Of a stretch of 64,000 nucleotides of DNA, positions 18,537 through 57,653 are shown one piece after another. Under the pieces are notes generated by a model. It did not search any database, was not told where the DNA came from, and saw only the letters and a list, made by a program, of their open reading frames with translations. Both the position numbers and the translations under genes were made by a program. The stretch comes from Melioribacteraceae bacterium (GTDB taxonomy: Bacteria; Bacteroidota; Ignavibacteria; Ignavibacteriales; Melioribacteraceae), in the NCBI GenBank assembly GCA_021740785.1, contig JAIOZI010000003.1, forward strand, positions 1 to 64,000, in the 5' to 3' direction. Position 1 is the first letter of the stretch; each line of letters opens with the position of its first letter.

Positions 18537-18752
18537 CCCAAAAAATTCATTGGAAATGAATTTTTTGCCGCTGGTCGCTCATAAAATGTTTTATTAAAAC
18601 ATTTTATATTGCGGGATTAACCCCGACAATTTGTAAGAGAAATATTTTACTTAAATAACGAATTCCAAAATTTCTATATGACTAAGCATCTGATAATTCA
18701 CAACTTACAAATTGTCGGCACGAAGGGCAGATTTTCCATTGGAAAATCTGGG
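18537..18752 (-). repeat. 216-bp dispersed palindromic element, copy A
   Basis: From CCC to GGG this unit is 216 bp. It is the reverse complement of the copies at 26526-26741 and 56745-56960. It holds a terminal hairpin (CAGATTTTCCATTGGAAAATC-type), the inverted pair CCGACAATTTGTAAG/CTTACAAATTGTCGG, a CATAAAATGTTTT/AAAACATTTTAT hairpin, and a second end hairpin around CATTGGAAATG. TTAA occurs next to both ends. It begins 41 bp after mutB and could end its transcript. The rest of the gap (18753-18941) shows nothing coding. Confidence 0.85.
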
Positions 18753-18941
18753 TTAAAAATAATTTGGGAAGTGCTTTATTAGAGTTTTTGAAATAATATG
18801 ATTATTAAATCGACATGTTAAATGATTTTTCCGGCAACCCATGTCAAAGTTAAAAATTGATTTTATATTAAACAGGCAGCCTATTTCTAATGACCAAAAA
18901 TAGAATTGATTGACCGGGTCACAATGCGGTAATATTATATT

Positions 18942-20720: not shown

Positions 20721-20751
20721 ATCAACATATCTATTAATTATTGAGGTGGAA

Positions 20752-21507
20752 ATGAAAGTCTTAAAATTTGCTGCAGTAATATTTTTATTTAGTACGGTAA
20801 TGTTTGCTCAAACTTTAGAAGAGGTTTTAAATAGTCATTTTGAAGCTACCGGAACAGACAAGCTCGCGGAAGTAAGTACCGTTATTACAAACGGAAAAGT
20901 TATGCAGGCATCTTTTGAAATCCCTATCAAAGCATACAACAAACGTCCAATGAAATTTAGATCGGAAGGCTCTTTCCAGGGTATGGAAATTGTTACAATC
21001 TATGACGGTGAAAGCGGGTGGTCGAAAAATCCTTTTATGGGTTCGAATGATTTTCAACAATTGCCGCAAGATCAATTAGATCAGATAAAAGATCAAGCCG
21101 ATTTTGAAGGCATGTTATTCAATTGGGAAGAAAAAGGTTACAACGTAACACTCGACGGTACCGAAGATTTTGAGGGTATCGAGACTTATGTTGTTACACT
21201 ATCAAAAAAGAATGGAGATGTCTATAAACATTTCATCGACACTGAAAATTTCATCCTGTTGAAGATGGTTTCGAAAATTAATTTCAGGGGAGTCGAAACA
21301 GAAGCAACAACTTTATTCAGCAATTACAAAGAAGTCAATGGAATGGTTATGCCTTTCGAAACCGAAACATTAGTAAACGGACAAACAGCGGCGCAAATAT
21401 CAATTGAGTCTGTTGAATTTAATAAAGATGTTCCCGATTCATTATTTGAGGTACCTGAAACAGTACCCGCAGTTGAAGAAGACAGCACCAAAGTAGACGA
21501 AAAGTGA
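20752..21507 (+). CDS. Periplasmic LolA/LolB-like protein of unknown role
   Basis: A 251-residue exported protein. The signal peptide spans residues 1-20 (ends VMFAQ). The rest reads as a beta-rich lipoprotein-carrier-like fold: FEIPIKAYNKRPMKFRSEG, a YDGESGW strand, and a late SIESVEFNKDVPDSLFEVPE closing motif common in outer-membrane lipoprotein-sorting-like proteins. The ATG at 20752 follows GAGGTG; a GTG two codons earlier overlaps that site. It lies 31 bp after meaB and 7 bp before the second BNR gene, so co-transcription with the latter is likely. Possible roles are carrying a lipid or helping export of the neighbour; neither is shown. Confidence 0.72.
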   Translation: MKVLKFAAVIFLFSTVMFAQTLEEVLNSHFEATGTDKLAEVSTVITNGKVMQASFEIPIKAYNKRPMKFRSEGSFQGMEIVTIYDGESGWSKNPFMGSNDFQQLPQDQLDQIKDQADFEGMLFNWEEKGYNVTLDGTEDFEGIETYVVTLSKKNGDVYKHFIDTENFILLKMVSKINFRGVETEATTLFSNYKEVNGMVMPFETETLVNGQTAAQISIESVEFNKDVPDSLFEVPETVPAVEEDSTKVDEK

Positions 21508-50704: not shown

Positions 50705-51853
50705 TTAAAAATAATATTCACCTTGAAGATAGTACGAATCACCGTAATACCAATATTCGGTGAAATTATCTCCGAATGAAATTTGTGCGCCGAGACTAAA
50801 ATAAAAATCCTCAGTCAGGGAATAATTGCCGAATAATCCATAGTAACCGCTTTGATCATTTAGATTAATATTGAAAGCAACCGAGGTTGATAATAAAGAA
50901 TGAAGTTGATAATTAATATTGGTGATAAAATAATTTTGACTGAGATTTAATATCTCACCATTAGCCAGCCGGAATAATTCGTAATTCATTTTATCCTTTT
51001 TCCCTTCACCGTTAAAATGATATTCAATTAACCCATAAAGTTTTGATGTGAATTGGTAGTCTGCGCCCAAAATATATTTAATAAAATTATCGCTTGCATT
51101 TTCATTATAAACTGAATATATACCCTCGCCTCTAATACCTGCATCAAATAAATTCCCGGCAAAGTCCAAACCGATAACATAACGCTGATCGAAATAACCC
51201 GACATGATTGAGAAATCGTACTGATCGAAATTAGTGCGAAACCTTGCGCCAAAATTTGATTTACTCATATCTTCTCTGAAATTATAAACGATATTCAAAT
51301 CGGTGAAGTTACCTAGATAAATCATAGTTGATACCGCATCTGCACCGTCTTTTTCTATCTTATAAAAATTCGCCGGATTAATCGGATTGAACAAATCCAT
51401 CGGATTCCAAATCCTCCCCGTTCCCCAAGAAATACGCTGCCTTCCGATTATGACATTCCCCCAATCGAAACCCTGCCGTATATAAATCCGATCTATGAAA
51501 TGATTAACTATAAATTGATTTTTATTGATGAGTTTCCAATTCATTTTAACCAACTGCCTCCGGTTTGAATCTGTAGTGAGATCAAATAAGCTGAAGTTGG
51601 TCTCGCTCATATAAAGCGAGTTGATTTCATATTCTAAATTTAATCGCGTAGTCTCACTCAAATATACTGTTGGTCTTAGACGAACTCTCGATAAATTATA
51701 AAATTGATCATCAAGCTTAAAAATCACCAAATCCCTCGAGGGTTGATAGATGGGCATATTAAAAGCATAGCCGCTTATATTAAAATCTGTCTGCCCGAAT
51801 AGCGCTGTTCCTGATATTAATATGAACAAGAATACTTGTAAGTTTTTAATCAT
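50705..51853 (-). CDS. Outer-membrane beta-barrel protein, DUF1302-like
   Basis: A 382-residue exported protein with a signal peptide (1-20, ALFGQ). Alternating hydrophobic/polar strands end in an aromatic residue (QGEYYF), as expected of an outer-membrane barrel. The motif IIGRQRISWGTGRIWNPMD resembles the GRQ..NWG segment of DUF1302-type proteins that, elsewhere, accompany DUF1329 LolB-like proteins and lipid exporters. It is the last gene of the operon starting at 56665; its ATG overlaps the SDR-like stop by four bases. It probably forms the outer-membrane exit or acceptor of that system. Confidence 0.72.
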   Translation of the reverse strand: MIKNLQVFLFILISGTALFGQTDFNISGYAFNMPIYQPSRDLVIFKLDDQFYNLSRVRLRPTVYLSETTRLNLEYEINSLYMSETNFSLFDLTTDSNRRQLVKMNWKLINKNQFIVNHFIDRIYIRQGFDWGNVIIGRQRISWGTGRIWNPMDLFNPINPANFYKIEKDGADAVSTMIYLGNFTDLNIVYNFREDMSKSNFGARFRTNFDQYDFSIMSGYFDQRYVIGLDFAGNLFDAGIRGEGIYSVYNENASDNFIKYILGADYQFTSKLYGLIEYHFNGEGKKDKMNYELFRLANGEILNLSQNYFITNINYQLHSLLSTSVAFNINLNDQSGYYGLFGNYSLTEDFYFSLGAQISFGDNFTEYWYYGDSYYLQGEYYF

Positions 51854-52713
51854 TTCTTGAAGTTATCATGATGTAACGAATTAAAAAAATCTTTAAGTGT
51901 GTGTTTCCCAAACTTCGGAGCAATCATATCTTCAGCCATGCTTGTAAGAAAAAACTCAATCTTTGCATAAAATCTTTTAGGAGTAAACAACCTCACTTTA
52001 GCAATTACTAATTTCCTTATCCAATCCGGAATGTAAACTATTTTCTTTTTATTGCGGGCAGCGGCAAATGCTATTTCTGCTATCTCATTTTGCGATAGCA
52101 CTTCCGGTCCGCCGATATTTATTTCTTTGTTATCCTGTTCAACAGCGTCCACACAAACTTCCGCAAGATCTTCACCGTGAATTGGATTTAATTTTTTTTC
52201 GCCTTTTCCGAATAAATATATTCTACCCTTTACAGCCATGTTATAAAATTCCGTTATATCGGAGAAAAATCCGTTCGGACGAATAACAGTATAATCGATG
52301 CCGGAAGATTTTAATTCATCAACAAATTTTTCTTTTGCGCTGCATATAACCAAATCCCTCATCAAATCGCCTTTAAGTACCGATATATAAATAAATTTCC
52401 GCACATTTTTTTTCAGCGCTTCATTTAACAGGTTTACATTCGCTTGATAATCAACGGCTTCGTATGAAAGCCCATCTTTCTGTTTTGTTATTCCGACAGT
52501 GGAAATTACTACATCTATTCCGGCACAGATATTTGTTAATGATTCAGGTTTGGTAACTTCGGCAGATATCACTTCAGTTAATTCCGGATTGTAGTTGTTT
52601 AATTTCTTTTTGTCTCGAACAATCGCTCTAGTATTGTAACCTTTTCGTTCAAGCTCGGCTAAGATAAATCTACCGAGATAACCGGTTGCGCCGGCTAAAA
52701 GAATTTTTTTCAT
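51850..52713 (-). CDS. NAD(P)-binding atypical SDR (NmrA-like)
   Basis: A 287-residue Rossmann protein. The dinucleotide loop GATGYLGRF (residues 7-15), the VVISTVGITKQ strand and the FIYISVLKG segment mark an atypical SDR/NmrA-like member. The YxxxK pair of classical SDRs is not seen. The C-terminus has a hydrophobic stretch. It may modify or sense a lipid or quinone-linked substrate. It overlaps the ATPase gene before it and the barrel gene after it by four bases each (ATGA), firmly inside the transport operon. Confidence 0.85.
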   Translation of the reverse strand: MKKILLAGATGYLGRFILAELERKGYNTRAIVRDKKKLNNYNPELTEVISAEVTKPESLTNICAGIDVVISTVGITKQKDGLSYEAVDYQANVNLLNEALKKNVRKFIYISVLKGDLMRDLVICSAKEKFVDELKSSGIDYTVIRPNGFFSDITEFYNMAVKGRIYLFGKGEKKLNPIHGEDLAEVCVDAVEQDNKEINIGGPEVLSQNEIAEIAFAAARNKKKIVYIPDWIRKLVIAKVRLFTPKRFYAKIEFFLTSMAEDMIAPKFGKHTLKDFFNSLHHDNFKK

Positions 52714-53378
52714 TCAATTCTCCCATCCTTAAGAATTATCAATCGTTTTGCCCTTTCAATAACCTGTTTATCATGTGAAGAAAAAACAAATGTGATATTT
52801 TTTTCTTTATTCATCTGCTCCATTAAATCGAGCAAATTACTTCCGGTTTTAGAATCCAGATTGGCAGTTGGTTCGTCTGCCAATACAATAGTCGGATTAT
52901 TTACAATCGCTCTTGCCACCGCAACTCTCTGCTGCTGCCCGCCGCTCATTTCATTGGGACGTTTATCAGCTAGTTCTTTAATTTCCAGTTCATCCATAAT
53001 AGCCAACGCCCTCTCGGTTCTCTCTTTTTCCGGAACTCCTAAAAGCATCATGCTGAACTCTATATTTTCAATTGCAGTCAAAACCGGAATTAAATTGTAT
53101 GCCTGGAAAATGAATCCGAGTTTGTTCAATCGAATTTCGGATAACTCCTTTTTAGTTTTTTTCGAGATATCCTCTGATTCAAAAAATATTTTCCCGCTCG
53201 TGGGTTTATCAAGCGCTCCTATTAAATTCAGCAATGTTGTTTTGCCCGAGCCCGAGGGACCTGCTATAACAACATAATCACCTGTATTGATAGTCAAATC
53301 AACATCATCAAGCGCTTTAACCGGAACCCCGTTATCTTGATAAATCTTTTCTAATTTTTCTGTTCTGATTATTTCCAT
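52710..53378 (-). CDS. LolD/MacB-type ABC transporter ATPase
   Basis: A 222-residue ATPase. Walker A is GPSGSGKT (residues 40-47), the Q-loop region is GFIFQAYNLIPVLTAIENIE, the signature is MSGGQQQRVAVARAI, and Walker B is TIVLADEPTANLDSKTG. Those traits place it with LolD, MacB and FtsE. It should drive the two FtsX-type permeases encoded upstream. The gap to the second permease is 71 bp, the longest in the operon. Its stop overlaps the SDR-like gene start by four bases. Confidence 0.94.
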   Translation of the reverse strand: MEIIRTEKLEKIYQDNGVPVKALDDVDLTINTGDYVVIAGPSGSGKTTLLNLIGALDKPTSGKIFFESEDISKKTKKELSEIRLNKLGFIFQAYNLIPVLTAIENIEFSMMLLGVPEKERTERALAIMDELEIKELADKRPNEMSGGQQQRVAVARAIVNNPTIVLADEPTANLDSKTGSNLLDLMEQMNKEKNITFVFSSHDKQVIERAKRLIILKDGRIE

Positions 53379-53449
53379 TTCATTTAACTGTTATTTGTAA
53401 ATTTTTATTTATTTGGATGATATTTTTCCAATTGCATTTCAGTTATAAC

Positions 53450-54664
53450 TCATACATATCTTATAGCATAAACCGGTTCAAGTTTTACTGCTTTGTAAGC
53501 AGGGTATAAAGCGCCGATAACTGTAATCACCGGTATTGAAATTACAGATAGCAATAAATTTTCTATATCAAGCCTGGGATAGATTACAGCGCCCACGCCA
53601 AATGAATTTAGACTTTCAGAAAACATACTCAAATCCAACCCAACAGAAGCCAGTCTCCATTGAATAACCATGCTGATTACCAGACCAACGATGGTGCCAA
53701 TGATACCAATTATAAAGGCTTCTGTTACAATCATCCCGAAAATTTTTCGATTCTTCATTCCGATTGCCATTAAAACTCCGAATTCATTTATCCTTTCAAA
53801 AACCGACATCAGCATTGTATTAATTATTCCGAATATTAACGCCAATCCGACTATCATTATTACTATCAGAACTGTTTCTTTATAGTAATCCATTTGAATG
53901 ATTAATGTCGGGAGTAAATCTTTATATGTCAGCACCTCAAAATCAGCCGGTAGTTCAGTGATTAATCTCTCTTTTATTTGATCAACGTTTTCGTAGTTAT
54001 CGGTTATAACCGCGAACTCATAAATTTTATCATTAACATTCAGCATTCTTTGGGCATCAGCTGCCGGAATGTAAATGTAAGTTCTTTCAAATTCCGAACT
54101 TGATGTTTTAAAAATCCCCACAACTCTAAATACTTCAGAACCAATACTGCCGTCAATTTGATTTGACATTGCAACAACCTTATCGCCTAGACTCACATTC
54201 AGCTTATCTGCCAATTTTTGTCCCAACATAATTTCACGAGACCCACCGCTCAGATATTCACCATCTTTTAATGATTCATCAATTATAGATACGCTCTTCT
54301 CCTCTTCAGGATTAACTCCATAAATATAAACTCCCGATGAACTGGTTGCGCTGCTTATTAAACCAAAAGCAATAACACGCTTGCTGACTGAATTAATACC
54401 TTTTACCGTTTTAATTTTGCTTTCCGCCGATTGATAACCCGGAATAAAATCTTTTACTACCTTGTTATTATGAAAGCCTTTTTTATGAATTTGGATGTGA
54501 GAAATATTTGTGCTTACGCGGTTAAATAACATTTGATACATCATCCCGTTCATGAATGTATCCATAAATATCAGCGCAATAACACCGGCAACAACTGACC
54601 CTAACACAATTATTGATCTTCGTTTATTCCGCCCAATATTTCGCCATGCAATTTTTAAAATCAT
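53450..54664 (-). CDS. FtsX/MacB-type ABC permease 2
   Basis: A 404-residue permease. An N-terminal helix (about 20-40) is preceded by AWRNIGRNKRRS, the coupling start shared by this family. A periplasmic MacB-PCD-like domain (45-260) follows, then three helices (about 265-385) and a KAVKLEPVYAIRYV tail. It is a likely half of a heterodimer with the permease at 54689-55918, matching LolC/LolE architecture. A 24-bp gap separates the two. Members extract lipoproteins or drive mechanical efflux without crossing the membrane. Confidence 0.9.
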   Translation of the reverse strand: MILKIAWRNIGRNKRRSIIVLGSVVAGVIALIFMDTFMNGMMYQMLFNRVSTNISHIQIHKKGFHNNKVVKDFIPGYQSAESKIKTVKGINSVSKRVIAFGLISSATSSSGVYIYGVNPEEEKSVSIIDESLKDGEYLSGGSREIMLGQKLADKLNVSLGDKVVAMSNQIDGSIGSEVFRVVGIFKTSSSEFERTYIYIPAADAQRMLNVNDKIYEFAVITDNYENVDQIKERLITELPADFEVLTYKDLLPTLIIQMDYYKETVLIVIMIVGLALIFGIINTMLMSVFERINEFGVLMAIGMKNRKIFGMIVTEAFIIGIIGTIVGLVISMVIQWRLASVGLDLSMFSESLNSFGVGAVIYPRLDIENLLLSVISIPVITVIGALYPAYKAVKLEPVYAIRYV

Positions 54665-54688
54665 TTTTTCACCAAGTATCAGGATTTA

Positions 54689-55918
54689 TTAAGTGTATCT
54701 TATTCCTTTCAGAGGCTCTAATCTATATACTTTTACTAGAGGATAAATGCTCGATAAAACTGAAATCACGAAAACTGTTATTGATGTATTTATGAAAATA
54801 CTCCTCTCCATTGTCGATTGAATTTGAGGCAGAAATCCATACTCCTCATAAATCCATCCGAGTTCGCTTCCCAATTCAATAGGATTCTGAACGATGTAAT
54901 AATTTATTATTCCTCCGATTATATCACCCAATACAATTCCTATAATCGTAATGAAAATAATTTCCATTAATACAAGATAGACTAATTTTAACTGCGGCAT
55001 TCCAATCGATAACGTAACGCCGAATTCATTAAATCTTTCCGTTACCGACATCAACACTGTATTCAAAATTCCAAATGCAACAATCACAATAAGAATTAGT
55101 AAAAAGAAAACACCGCTGATATTGTCAAATTCAATTGATTGTTTAAGATCCGGCATTACCTCCCCCCATGAAAGAACGGCAAGTTTCCGATCGGATATTT
55201 TTTCATTCAAATTGTTTCTGACAGTTTCGATTTCATCAAGTGAATTTAGATTGATTACAAGCGCATGAATATTACCGTACATCGAGAGCAGATCATTTGC
55301 CGATTCAATTCCCATAAAAACACCCATCGCATCAAATTCGGGAGATCCGAATTTTGCTGTCCCGGAAATAATAAATTTTTGATTTCCAAGCGCCCCGTCA
55401 AATCCTTGAGATAAAATCACAACCGTATCGCCAATCTCAGCATTTAAATTTCCCAAAAGTTTTGCACCGATAACAATTTCCTTTGAGCCTGCCGAGTTAA
55501 AGAAACTGCCCTCATCAATTCTATCCAATAAGTGTGTTACTTCCTTTTCTGTTTGAGGGTCAATCCCAAATATCGCAGCACCTTGAGAATTATCTTTAAA
55601 GCTGATCAAACCTTGCGCATGTATGCGTGTAGTATAAGATTTTATTCGGGGAGTTGTATTTAGAGCATTCCGGATTTCATCAGTAATTCTAAATGCTTTA
55701 TTAAGCGATGGATTTTTCTGATAACCATCACGCTGAATCTGAATGTAACCTGAAAACATCTCTACCGCATTTTTGATATTCACATTGTAAGTTCCGATCT
55801 GTACTCCGCGCATCGCAACTGCACTCAACGTAGCAAATGTAATTGCCGTCAATGTTAATATCGATCTTCTTTTATTGCGCCAAATATTCCGCCAGGCTAA
55901 TTTTAAAAGCAGCTTCAC
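54689..55918 (-). CDS. FtsX/MacB-type ABC permease 1
   Basis: A 409-residue permease built like the gene below it: AWRNIWRNKRRSILTLTAITFA at the start, a periplasmic domain (45-260), three C-terminal helices and a YRLEPLKGIRYT end. The start is GTG, directly after the TAA stop of the LolA-like gene with no intervening base, indicating coupling. Both permeases share FGILNTVLMSVTERFNEFGV-type sequence, so they are duplicates. With the LolA-like protein and the barrel they suggest a route across the envelope. Confidence 0.9.
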   Translation of the reverse strand: MKLLLKLAWRNIWRNKRRSILTLTAITFATLSAVAMRGVQIGTYNVNIKNAVEMFSGYIQIQRDGYQKNPSLNKAFRITDEIRNALNTTPRIKSYTTRIHAQGLISFKDNSQGAAIFGIDPQTEKEVTHLLDRIDEGSFFNSAGSKEIVIGAKLLGNLNAEIGDTVVILSQGFDGALGNQKFIISGTAKFGSPEFDAMGVFMGIESANDLLSMYGNIHALVINLNSLDEIETVRNNLNEKISDRKLAVLSWGEVMPDLKQSIEFDNISGVFFLLILIVIVAFGILNTVLMSVTERFNEFGVTLSIGMPQLKLVYLVLMEIIFITIIGIVLGDIIGGIINYYIVQNPIELGSELGWIYEEYGFLPQIQSTMERSIFINTSITVFVISVLSSIYPLVKVYRLEPLKGIRYT

Positions 55919-56665
55919 TTAATTGCCTCTTTCCAATTCTCTAAATGAAAATATCCTTTCATTCAATTTAATATCGAACTCCATTTTAATTACTTCGATT
56001 ACCGTTGAATTCCCTTCTTTAATATTATTATGCATTGCCCAGCGAGTCGGCATTAAACGATCATCCATTTTCATTACACCGCTAAACTCCATATAGCGAA
56101 CTAGATTTCCCTTTTCGTCATAATAATCAACACGGGCTGCAAGATTATCAACTTTACGGACCCAGTAAAGCAATCTTCCCCAAACAACAGGAGCATCAGG
56201 TTCCGGAATTAATTCAATCTTCCAGCAAAGCTCGCCGTCAATTTTTTCATCTCCCAAAAGCTTTTGTGTGTAATCATCAGTAAGATTTGATTCACGAACC
56301 AAATCATCATTCGTAAAATCGGAACCGTTCCATGATTGAAGCATCATCGATGGTGGAATTTTTATTGTTGTTTCAGTATTTTTTAAATAGCTCCACATTT
56401 CATTCCCGATTTTTAACGTCTTATTACCCGCCTCTTTTGGAGGAGATTGAATAACAATTAATGCTTTCTCATTTCCTTCCCACCAGCTTTCCATTTTAAG
56501 TTCGCGTGTATAGTCAGGAGTTTCAACAGTCATTTTTATTATTCCATGAGCATTCTCTCCCTTAAGATTGTCTTCAGCTTTATTTATTATTTCTTCAGCC
56601 GTTTGAGGAAACATTAAACATGGAACAATAAGAAGCATGATTGAAATGAAAACTTTACTATTCAT
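55919..56665 (-). CDS. LolA-like outer-membrane lipoprotein-sorting family protein
   Basis: A 248-residue periplasmic protein. The signal peptide (1-21, CLMFPQ) is followed by a carrier-like beta sheet: HGIIKMTVETPDYTRELKMESWWEGNE, IGNEMWSYLKNTETTIKIPPSMM and a distal GRLLYWVRKVDNLAARVDYYDEKGNLVR. These match COG2834-type outer membrane lipoprotein-sorting proteins, often paired with lipid exporters. It heads the operon and is 20 bases from an operator-like palindrome. The ATG at 56665 is chosen over a GTG three codons upstream. Confidence 0.87.
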   Translation of the reverse strand: MNSKVFISIMLLIVPCLMFPQTAEEIINKAEDNLKGENAHGIIKMTVETPDYTRELKMESWWEGNEKALIVIQSPPKEAGNKTLKIGNEMWSYLKNTETTIKIPPSMMLQSWNGSDFTNDDLVRESNLTDDYTQKLLGDEKIDGELCWKIELIPEPDAPVVWGRLLYWVRKVDNLAARVDYYDEKGNLVRYMEFSGVMKMDDRLMPTRWAMHNNIKEGNSTVIEVIKMEFDIKLNERIFSFRELERGN

Positions 56666-56684
56666 AATTAACACCGAGATTAAA

Positions 56685-56702
56685 TGACTAAACGTTCAGT
56701 CA
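56685..56702. promoter_or_regulatory. Operator-like palindrome, site 1 (likely TetR target)
   Basis: TGACTAAACGTTCAGTCA is an 18-bp palindrome with one mismatched pair (positions 6 and 13). Its reverse complement matches site 2 (57023-57040) at 15 of 18 bases. It lies 20 bases before the LolA-like start, suited to repress the transport operon. Confidence 0.65.
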
Positions 56703-56744
56703 AAAACTAAGTATATGAATCTCTTTTGTCAAGTATTTTTTTAA

Positions 56745-56960
56745 CCCAGATTTTCCATTGGAAAATCTGCCCTTCGTGCCGACAATTTGTAAGTTGAGAA
56801 ATGTCAAATACTTAGCCATATAGAAATTTTGGAATTCGTTATTTGAGTAAAATATTTTTCTTACAAATTGTCGGGGTTAATCCCGCAACATAAAATGTTT
56901 CAATAAAACATTTTATGAGCGGCCAACGGCAAAAAATTTATTTCCAATGAATTTTTTGGG
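56745..56960 (+). repeat. 216-bp dispersed palindromic element, copy C
   Basis: Exactly 216 bp from CCC to GGG and nearly the same as copy B. The hairpin CATAAAATGTTT/AAACATTTTATG has a 12-bp stem. The inverted pair CCGACAATTTGTAAG/CTTACAAATTGTCGG flanks about 80 bp. TTAA occurs at the left edge and one base past the right edge. It sits between the two operator-like sites, so it has probably pushed apart a compact divergent control region. Confidence 0.87.
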
Positions 56961-57022
56961 TTTAATTTTTCTTTTAAGAGACAAGAAATCATTTGATTAT
57001 ATTGAATAATAACAATATTTTT

Positions 57023-57040
57023 TGACTGACCATTTATTCA
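57023..57040. promoter_or_regulatory. Operator-like palindrome, site 2 (likely TetR target)
   Basis: TGACTGACCATTTATTCA matches the reverse complement of site 1 (TGACTGAACGTTTAGTCA) at 15 of 18 bases, although its own two-fold symmetry is weaker. It ends 13 bases before the TetR start, a position suited to autoregulation. Confidence 0.55.
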
Positions 57041-57053
57041 ATAATTAATTCTT

Positions 57054-57653
57054 ATGCCAAGATCATCGGAACAAAATAAACAGATAAGAGAAAAAACCAA
57101 GAAACGCATTCTGGAAACTGCTAGAACCCTCTTTGCTAAAAATGGTTTTCACGGAACTTCAATAAGTGAAATTGCAAAAGAAGCCGGTATTTCAAAAGGA
57201 CTCACTTACAATTATTTCAAAAGTAAAACCGAAATCGTTGAAGTAATATTCGATGAATTTTTATTAGACGCCCATAATTTTTTTGAAGTAATCAATAACT
57301 ATTCTGACCCGTACGAAAAATTGACGGCACTGATTGAATCATCATTTGATTATATTGAATACGCTGAAGATCAATGGAAACTTAATTTTAGTCTTATTCT
57401 CCAACCCCAGGTTATGAAACTTGCCCGCAGCCAAATGATAAAATTTTATGATGAAATGCTGAACGAAATAGAAAAAGTTTTTAAGGGAGTCGGAATAAAG
57501 AATGCAGCTTCGGAAGCGCGGGTGTTCGGCGCCGCTCTAGATGGAATCGGAATGTACTATATGATGAATAAGGAAAACTACCCTCTTAAAAAAATCAAAA
57601 AACACCTCCTGAAGAAATACAGCAAGGAAGAATTGCAGAAAACTTTTCGTTAA
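57054..57653 (+). CDS. TetR/AcrR family transcriptional regulator
   Basis: A 199-residue regulator. The N-terminal helix-turn-helix reads TSISEIAKEAGISKGLTYNYFKS (about residues 32-55), and the ligand-binding domain includes FDYIEYAEDQWKLNFSLILQP. It is divergent from the six-gene transport operon, with operator-like sites before each start, which makes it the likely local repressor. The inducer may be the substrate of the transport system, perhaps a lipid-like molecule. Repeat copy C lies between the two promoters. Confidence 0.92.
   Translation: MPRSSEQNKQIREKTKKRILETARTLFAKNGFHGTSISEIAKEAGISKGLTYNYFKSKTEIVEVIFDEFLLDAHNFFEVINNYSDPYEKLTALIESSFDYIEYAEDQWKLNFSLILQPQVMKLARSQMIKFYDEMLNEIEKVFKGVGIKNAASEARVFGAALDGIGMYYMMNKENYPLKKIKKHLLKKYSKEELQKTFR

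Follow-up and report, generated by a model that had tools for sequence, protein, structure and literature searches.

A predicted ABC-driven envelope transport cassette with a LolA-like carrier and a DUF1302-related barrel in a Melioribacteraceae genome and in other bacteria

The passage of hydrophobic molecules over the periplasm and outer membrane is a poorly known process. The RND (MMPL)–DUF1329/LolA-like–DUF1302 systems are exemplified by AmeABCD of Castellaniella, PP_0765/PP_0766/PP_2018/PP_2019 of P. putida and TOL_3187/TOL_3188 of T. oleivorans; a TetR gene is often nearby, and the RND, DUF1329 and DUF1302 genes have been associated with monoterpenes, Tween 20 and long-chain alkanes (PMC6394551, PMC10866462, PMC6304351), the Ame system being described as efflux (PMC6394551). 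LolABCDE comprises two permeases, an ATPase and a LolA-fold carrier. Among Type VII ABC complexes, YbbAP-TesA of E. coli is proposed to extract hydrophobic molecules (PMC12646458). Finally, the LolA3 protein of Porphyromonas gingivalis scarcely binds LolB, and no role is known for it (PMC13103446).

Here we describe a cassette that has features in common with all of these, located in a 64,000-nucleotide stretch of DNA from a Melioribacteraceae bacterium (the window). As in the RND–DUF1329–DUF1302 systems there is an inner-membrane pump, a carrier of the same fold group, a barrel that is homologous by profile and a TetR gene close by, but the pump is a Type VII ABC transporter rather than an RND protein, and the barrel escapes the DUF1302 Pfam model. 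The two permeases, ATPase and LolA-fold carrier are likewise found in LolABCDE, but the window set scores below the Lol cut-offs, its carrier is not PF03548, a barrel is added, and the genome has separate Lol genes. The transporter type is that of YbbAP-TesA, whose partner is a hydrolase whereas the partners here are a LolA-like carrier and a barrel. The cassette is best read as an ABC-driven relative of the RND/DUF1329/DUF1302 transporters that would take hydrophobic cargo to or through the outer membrane. We found no description of such an ABC-driven version in the open-access literature, which is no proof of novelty.

Gene content and predicted structures

The features of the locus are as follows.

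50705–51853, minus strand: outer-membrane beta-barrel of 382 aa, DUF1302-related by profile, with an invariant C-terminal Phe and the motif GRQR..WG...W.P.D.FN
51850–52713, minus strand: atypical SDR (NAD_binding_10, NDUFA9-like), accessory and outside the conserved unit
52710–53378, minus strand: LolD-like ABC ATPase (TIGR02211, 232 bits against a cut-off of 308)
53450–54664, minus strand: LolCE-like permease 2, MacB_PCD and FtsX (TIGR02212, 165 bits against a cut-off of 362)
54689–55918, minus strand: LolCE-like permease 1, MacB_PCD and FtsX (TIGR02212, 118 bits against a cut-off of 362)
55919–56665, minus strand: LolA-like periplasmic carrier, PF17131, with a signal peptide lacking a lipobox by eye
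56685–56702, no strand: putative TetR operator O1, TGACTGAACGTTTAGTCA, adjoining the carrier gene
57023–57040, no strand: putative TetR operator O2, TGACTGACCATTTATTCA, adjoining the TetR gene
57054–57653, plus strand: TetR-family regulator, divergent from the operon

The open reading frame listing bears out the layout described in an earlier note on this DNA. The six minus-strand frames and the divergent TetR gene are all present, the carrier frame (55919–56674) is in stop-to-start contact with permease 1, and there are 4-nt overlaps at both the ATPase/SDR and the SDR/barrel junctions. The ATG at 56665 that was proposed as the carrier start is the most likely one within its frame. Permease 1 is separated from permease 2 by 24 nt, and permease 2 from the ATPase by 71 nt.

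Pfam comparisons identify the carrier as LolA_like (PF17131, 8.6e-56), the SDR as NAD_binding_10 (1e-25) and the regulator as TetR_N (2.7e-17), and place MacB_PCD and FtsX domains in each of the two permeases. The ATPase matches ABC_tran (1.5e-35) and has LolD as its best NCBIfam match; its Walker A, Walker B and signature motifs are intact by eye. Permeases of this domain composition together with an ABC ATPase constitute a Type VII (MacB/LolCDE) transporter. The operon does not encode a MacAB-TolC efflux pump, since the MacA adaptor and TolC are absent from it, and the pump at this locus is of the ABC and not the RND/MMPL type.

The AlphaFold model of the barrel protein is confident (mean pLDDT 93.1, pTM 0.88) and is indeed a barrel, with 18 long strands counted from the strand listing and a long, nearly invariant loop at approximately residues 140–170. 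Its best structural matches in the PDB are porins and the alginate exporter AlgE, and as the TM scores are ~0.6 or less these show a barrel and not a function. There is no credible match to its sequence in the PDB and no Pfam or NCBIfam match, the protein falling below the DUF1302 (PF06980) gathering score. The likeness to DUF1302, which the earlier note had proposed, is substantiated by hhalign comparison with DUF1302 barrels (prob 99.8, E 5.5e-30).

The carrier model (pLDDT 92.7) has the LolA fold and is closest to P. gingivalis LolA3 (PDB 9tp6), NE2245 and a DUF1329 protein (TM ~0.8), with a TM of only ~0.45 to canonical LolA structures. PF17131 is its sole family match, the canonical LolA family PF03548 giving none. 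The carrier is thus LolA-like, as had been proposed, and nearest to the PF17131/DUF1329 group. A Prevotella nigrescens protein very close to LolA3 (E 4.7e-92) sits between MMPL and DUF1302 genes, so that this relative of LolA3 has an RND pump as its partner whereas the window carrier has an ABC pump.

Conservation of the unit and its pump

Several surveys show that the carrier, pump and barrel genes travel together. First, when relatives were searched with the barrel as query, 24 of 58 genomes had a match (a count that includes the genome of the window), and 22 of the 23 relatives' loci outside the window retain the order carrier, permease, permease, ATPase, barrel, apart from gaps in those 22 at contig ends or broken genes. 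The arrangement is therefore more than chance, and the earlier note's grouping of the barrel with the ABC genes holds in related genomes. At the 23rd locus the carrier and barrel go with an MMPL/RND pump, and ABC genes are absent. Second, a scan of named genomes revealed 80 loci in several phyla, among them Ignavibacteria, Calditrichota, Bacteroidota, Rhodothermota, KSB1, Elusimicrobia, Zixiibacteriota, Pseudomonadota and others. Counts were restricted to the 63 loci with at least 4.6 kb upstream, where the ATPase is present in 60, the permease in 58, the carrier in 52, TetR in 26 and the SDR in none; the recurrence of the five-gene unit in this set is given as 52/63. Some of these are genomes already among the relatives (e.g. 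L024/L065, L039/L120, L162/L066 and L163/L067) and the counts are thus not fully independent. Third, a survey driven by the carrier, without the barrel as query, gave 41 strong PF17131 matches in the order, 39 of which were examined. With two loci cut by contig ends left out (L052 and L053), the barrel is adjacent to the carrier in 36 of 37 complete loci, and at the remaining one (L055) a DUF1302 barrel lies roughly 7 kb off; the pump is ABC in 28 and RND in nine. Finally, at the phylum level, carriers scoring above 200 with the carrier profile have a barrel in 29 of 30 loci (the last ends at a contig edge), with an ABC pump in 28 and an RND pump in two. Twelve PF17131 genes with lower scores occur on their own, and the family at large is therefore not bound to the cassette.

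The SDR fares differently. The earlier note had included it as an enzyme that modifies the cargo, a suggestion that the neighbourhoods do not sustain: it lies in the unit at only two of the 23 relatives' loci and is found in five of 58 genomes, in some of them elsewhere than the cassette. We therefore reject it as a core member and treat it as an optional passenger or accessory gene in a few genomes. Its PDB matches are NDUFA9-type proteins and, by eye, its sequence retains the lysine of the YxxxK motif without the tyrosine. Among the recurrent neighbours of the loci there is no co-conserved biosynthetic gene that names a substrate, and no informative family beyond local synteny.

The organization of the loci varies. 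Besides the order seen in the window, some loci are reversed (TetR, barrel, ATPase, permeases, carrier), some have a single permease (ATPase, permease, carrier, barrel), some, in Betaproteobacteria, have fused permeases, and others are RND loci (TetR, MMPL, carrier, barrel). By profile, the window barrel family is matched by barrels from the reversed (prob 97.5) and single-permease (prob 98.5) loci. The host genome itself carries a second cassette, of the RND type (L045, 6318–12445 of contig C54), with two TetR genes, MMPL and LolA-like genes and a DUF1302 barrel that, in common with other RND-locus barrels, scores above the Pfam cut-off. In a FastTree phylogeny of 145 carriers, which is provisional given its long branches, the ABC and RND carriers part with a single change (support 93). 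As one split suffices, repeated independent pump swaps were rejected, and the swap looks old.

Two further arrangements were seen. An RND cassette on plasmid pHIC of Haliovirga abyssi (L235, 1206–11584; DUF1302, MMPL and LolA-like genes) adjoins a radical SAM gene and a 3-oxoacyl-ACP synthase III-like (KAS III-like) gene, a possible, weak hint at a fatty-acid-derived cargo. In two Burkholderiales loci (L106, 2829–5474, and L114, 3237–5573) the carrier frame is 778–881 aa long with PF17131 at the C-terminal end only and no Pfam match outside it; these are either fusions or frame artefacts of high-GC DNA.

The control region

The divergent intergenic regions of the relatives have in common the palindrome TGACT-N8-AGTCA (9 of 19, against at most three in shuffles). 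With one mismatch allowed in the locus counts, it lies upstream of the carrier in 18 of the 24 loci where TetR is divergent, in none of the 16 where TetR is on the same strand, and in three of the 59 where no TetR was detected. The window has two such sites, the putative operators O1 and O2, and this conservation supports the TetR control suggested in the earlier note. Elsewhere in the host genome, matches to the palindrome do not rise above a reversed-pattern control; a wider TetR regulon was accordingly rejected, and the regulator looks local.

O1 and O2 are 338 nt apart, compared with ~105–125 nt in relatives that have both sites. The extra DNA is a 222-bp repeat (approximately 56742–56963) that leaves both operators outside it. 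The host genome contains at least 40 copies with ≥93% identity, among them a second copy in the window at 18537–18757. The repeat is AT-rich with nested inverted repeats, has CCC...GGG ends, and the copies that were aligned are flanked by apparent 5-bp target duplications. There is no Rfam match, and since matches in relatives are weak and partial at best, the repeat is probably a miniature transposable element, recent in the host lineage, that inserted between the operators.

Proposed role of the cassette

We lean towards the cassette being a dedicated trans-envelope exporter of hydrophobic, probably lipid-like cargo, in which a TetR-controlled Type VII ABC pump acts with a LolA-like carrier and a barrel. 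The computed results that point this way are the gene set and its conservation across relatives and phyla, including the adjacency of the barrel in the carrier-driven surveys; the folds, with a barrel model and a carrier nearest LolA3/DUF1329; the DUF1302 profile match; the use of the same carrier–barrel pair by RND pumps, also in the host genome; the separate LolCE and LolA genes there; and the operator motif. Precedent is provided by the Type VII extraction complex (PMC12646458) and the RND/DUF1329/DUF1302 genes. A TetR repressor bound to the two palindromes would hold the operon off until a ligand, which may be the cargo or an acyl derivative, releases it. By analogy with the Type VII ABC and RND systems, the LolCDE/MacB-like transporter (two permeases and the LolD-like ATPase) would pull cargo from the outer leaflet of the inner membrane, and the LolA-like protein would receive it in its greasy groove, ferry it across the periplasm and dock on the 18-strand barrel, which would put it into the outer membrane or let it go outside. 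The earlier note's reading as envelope transport is upheld as such, with substrate and direction suggested by these precedents; it is from the pump families only that export is argued.

More tentatively, these loci may represent a widespread and undescribed class of ABC-driven transporters, in which a Type VII pump, a LolA-like shuttle and a DUF1302-type barrel deliver hydrophobic cargo other than lipoproteins to the outer membrane or the outside. In the cassette, an inner-membrane pump, a carrier and a barrel are encoded together as a complete set; it suggests a role for orphan LolA3-type carriers and for DUF1302/DUF1329 proteins, and its range from Ignavibacteria to Vibrio campbellii and Ralstonia pickettii makes the question testable in culturable hosts. 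Vibrio campbellii has all of it (L234), whereas Ralstonia pickettii carries the form with fused permeases (L098).

The same parts could work inward, the barrel admitting a hydrophobic nutrient or mislocalised lipid that carrier and pump take to the inner membrane. Growth on monoterpenes, Tween 20 or long alkanes, to which the RND/DUF1329/DUF1302 relatives are linked, would fit, but extraction or export is the known activity of both Type VII ABC and RND pumps and Ame is described as efflux, which makes this unlikely. A detoxifying efflux system, with TetR sensing a foreign hydrophobic cargo (a solvent, a bile-like compound or an antibiotic) rather than a native lipid, would account for a local regulator with putative operators at the cassette promoter only and for the lack of a co-conserved biosynthetic gene, and has a precedent in Ame; we regard it as improbable in that a system with a soluble shuttle does not resemble the known tripartite efflux pumps and the wide distribution suggests a lipid of the cell's own.

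That the cassette is the housekeeping Lol system was rejected. A separate LolCE pair in the host genome (316 and 285 bits, likewise below the TIGR02212 cut-off) lies beside a LolD-like ATPase (284 bits), and the one PF03548 LolA gene of this genome is on yet another contig; with these separate genes, the cassette is a dedicated system. A specialised Lol pathway that moves one or a few lipoproteins, or aids placement of the barrel, and not a free small molecule would agree with the LolA fold of the carrier and with LolD and LolCE as the transporter's best NCBIfam matches, but is quite improbable given scores under the Lol cut-offs, the genome's own LolCE pair and LolA, the distance of the carrier from canonical LolA, the poor binding of LolB by the related LolA3, and the service of the same carrier–barrel pair by RND pumps, which are not known as lipoprotein movers.

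Elsewhere in the window, a third, marginal LolA-like gene (20746–21507; PF17131, 33 bits) adjoins a gene for a 1019-aa Sortilin/Vps10-repeat protein.
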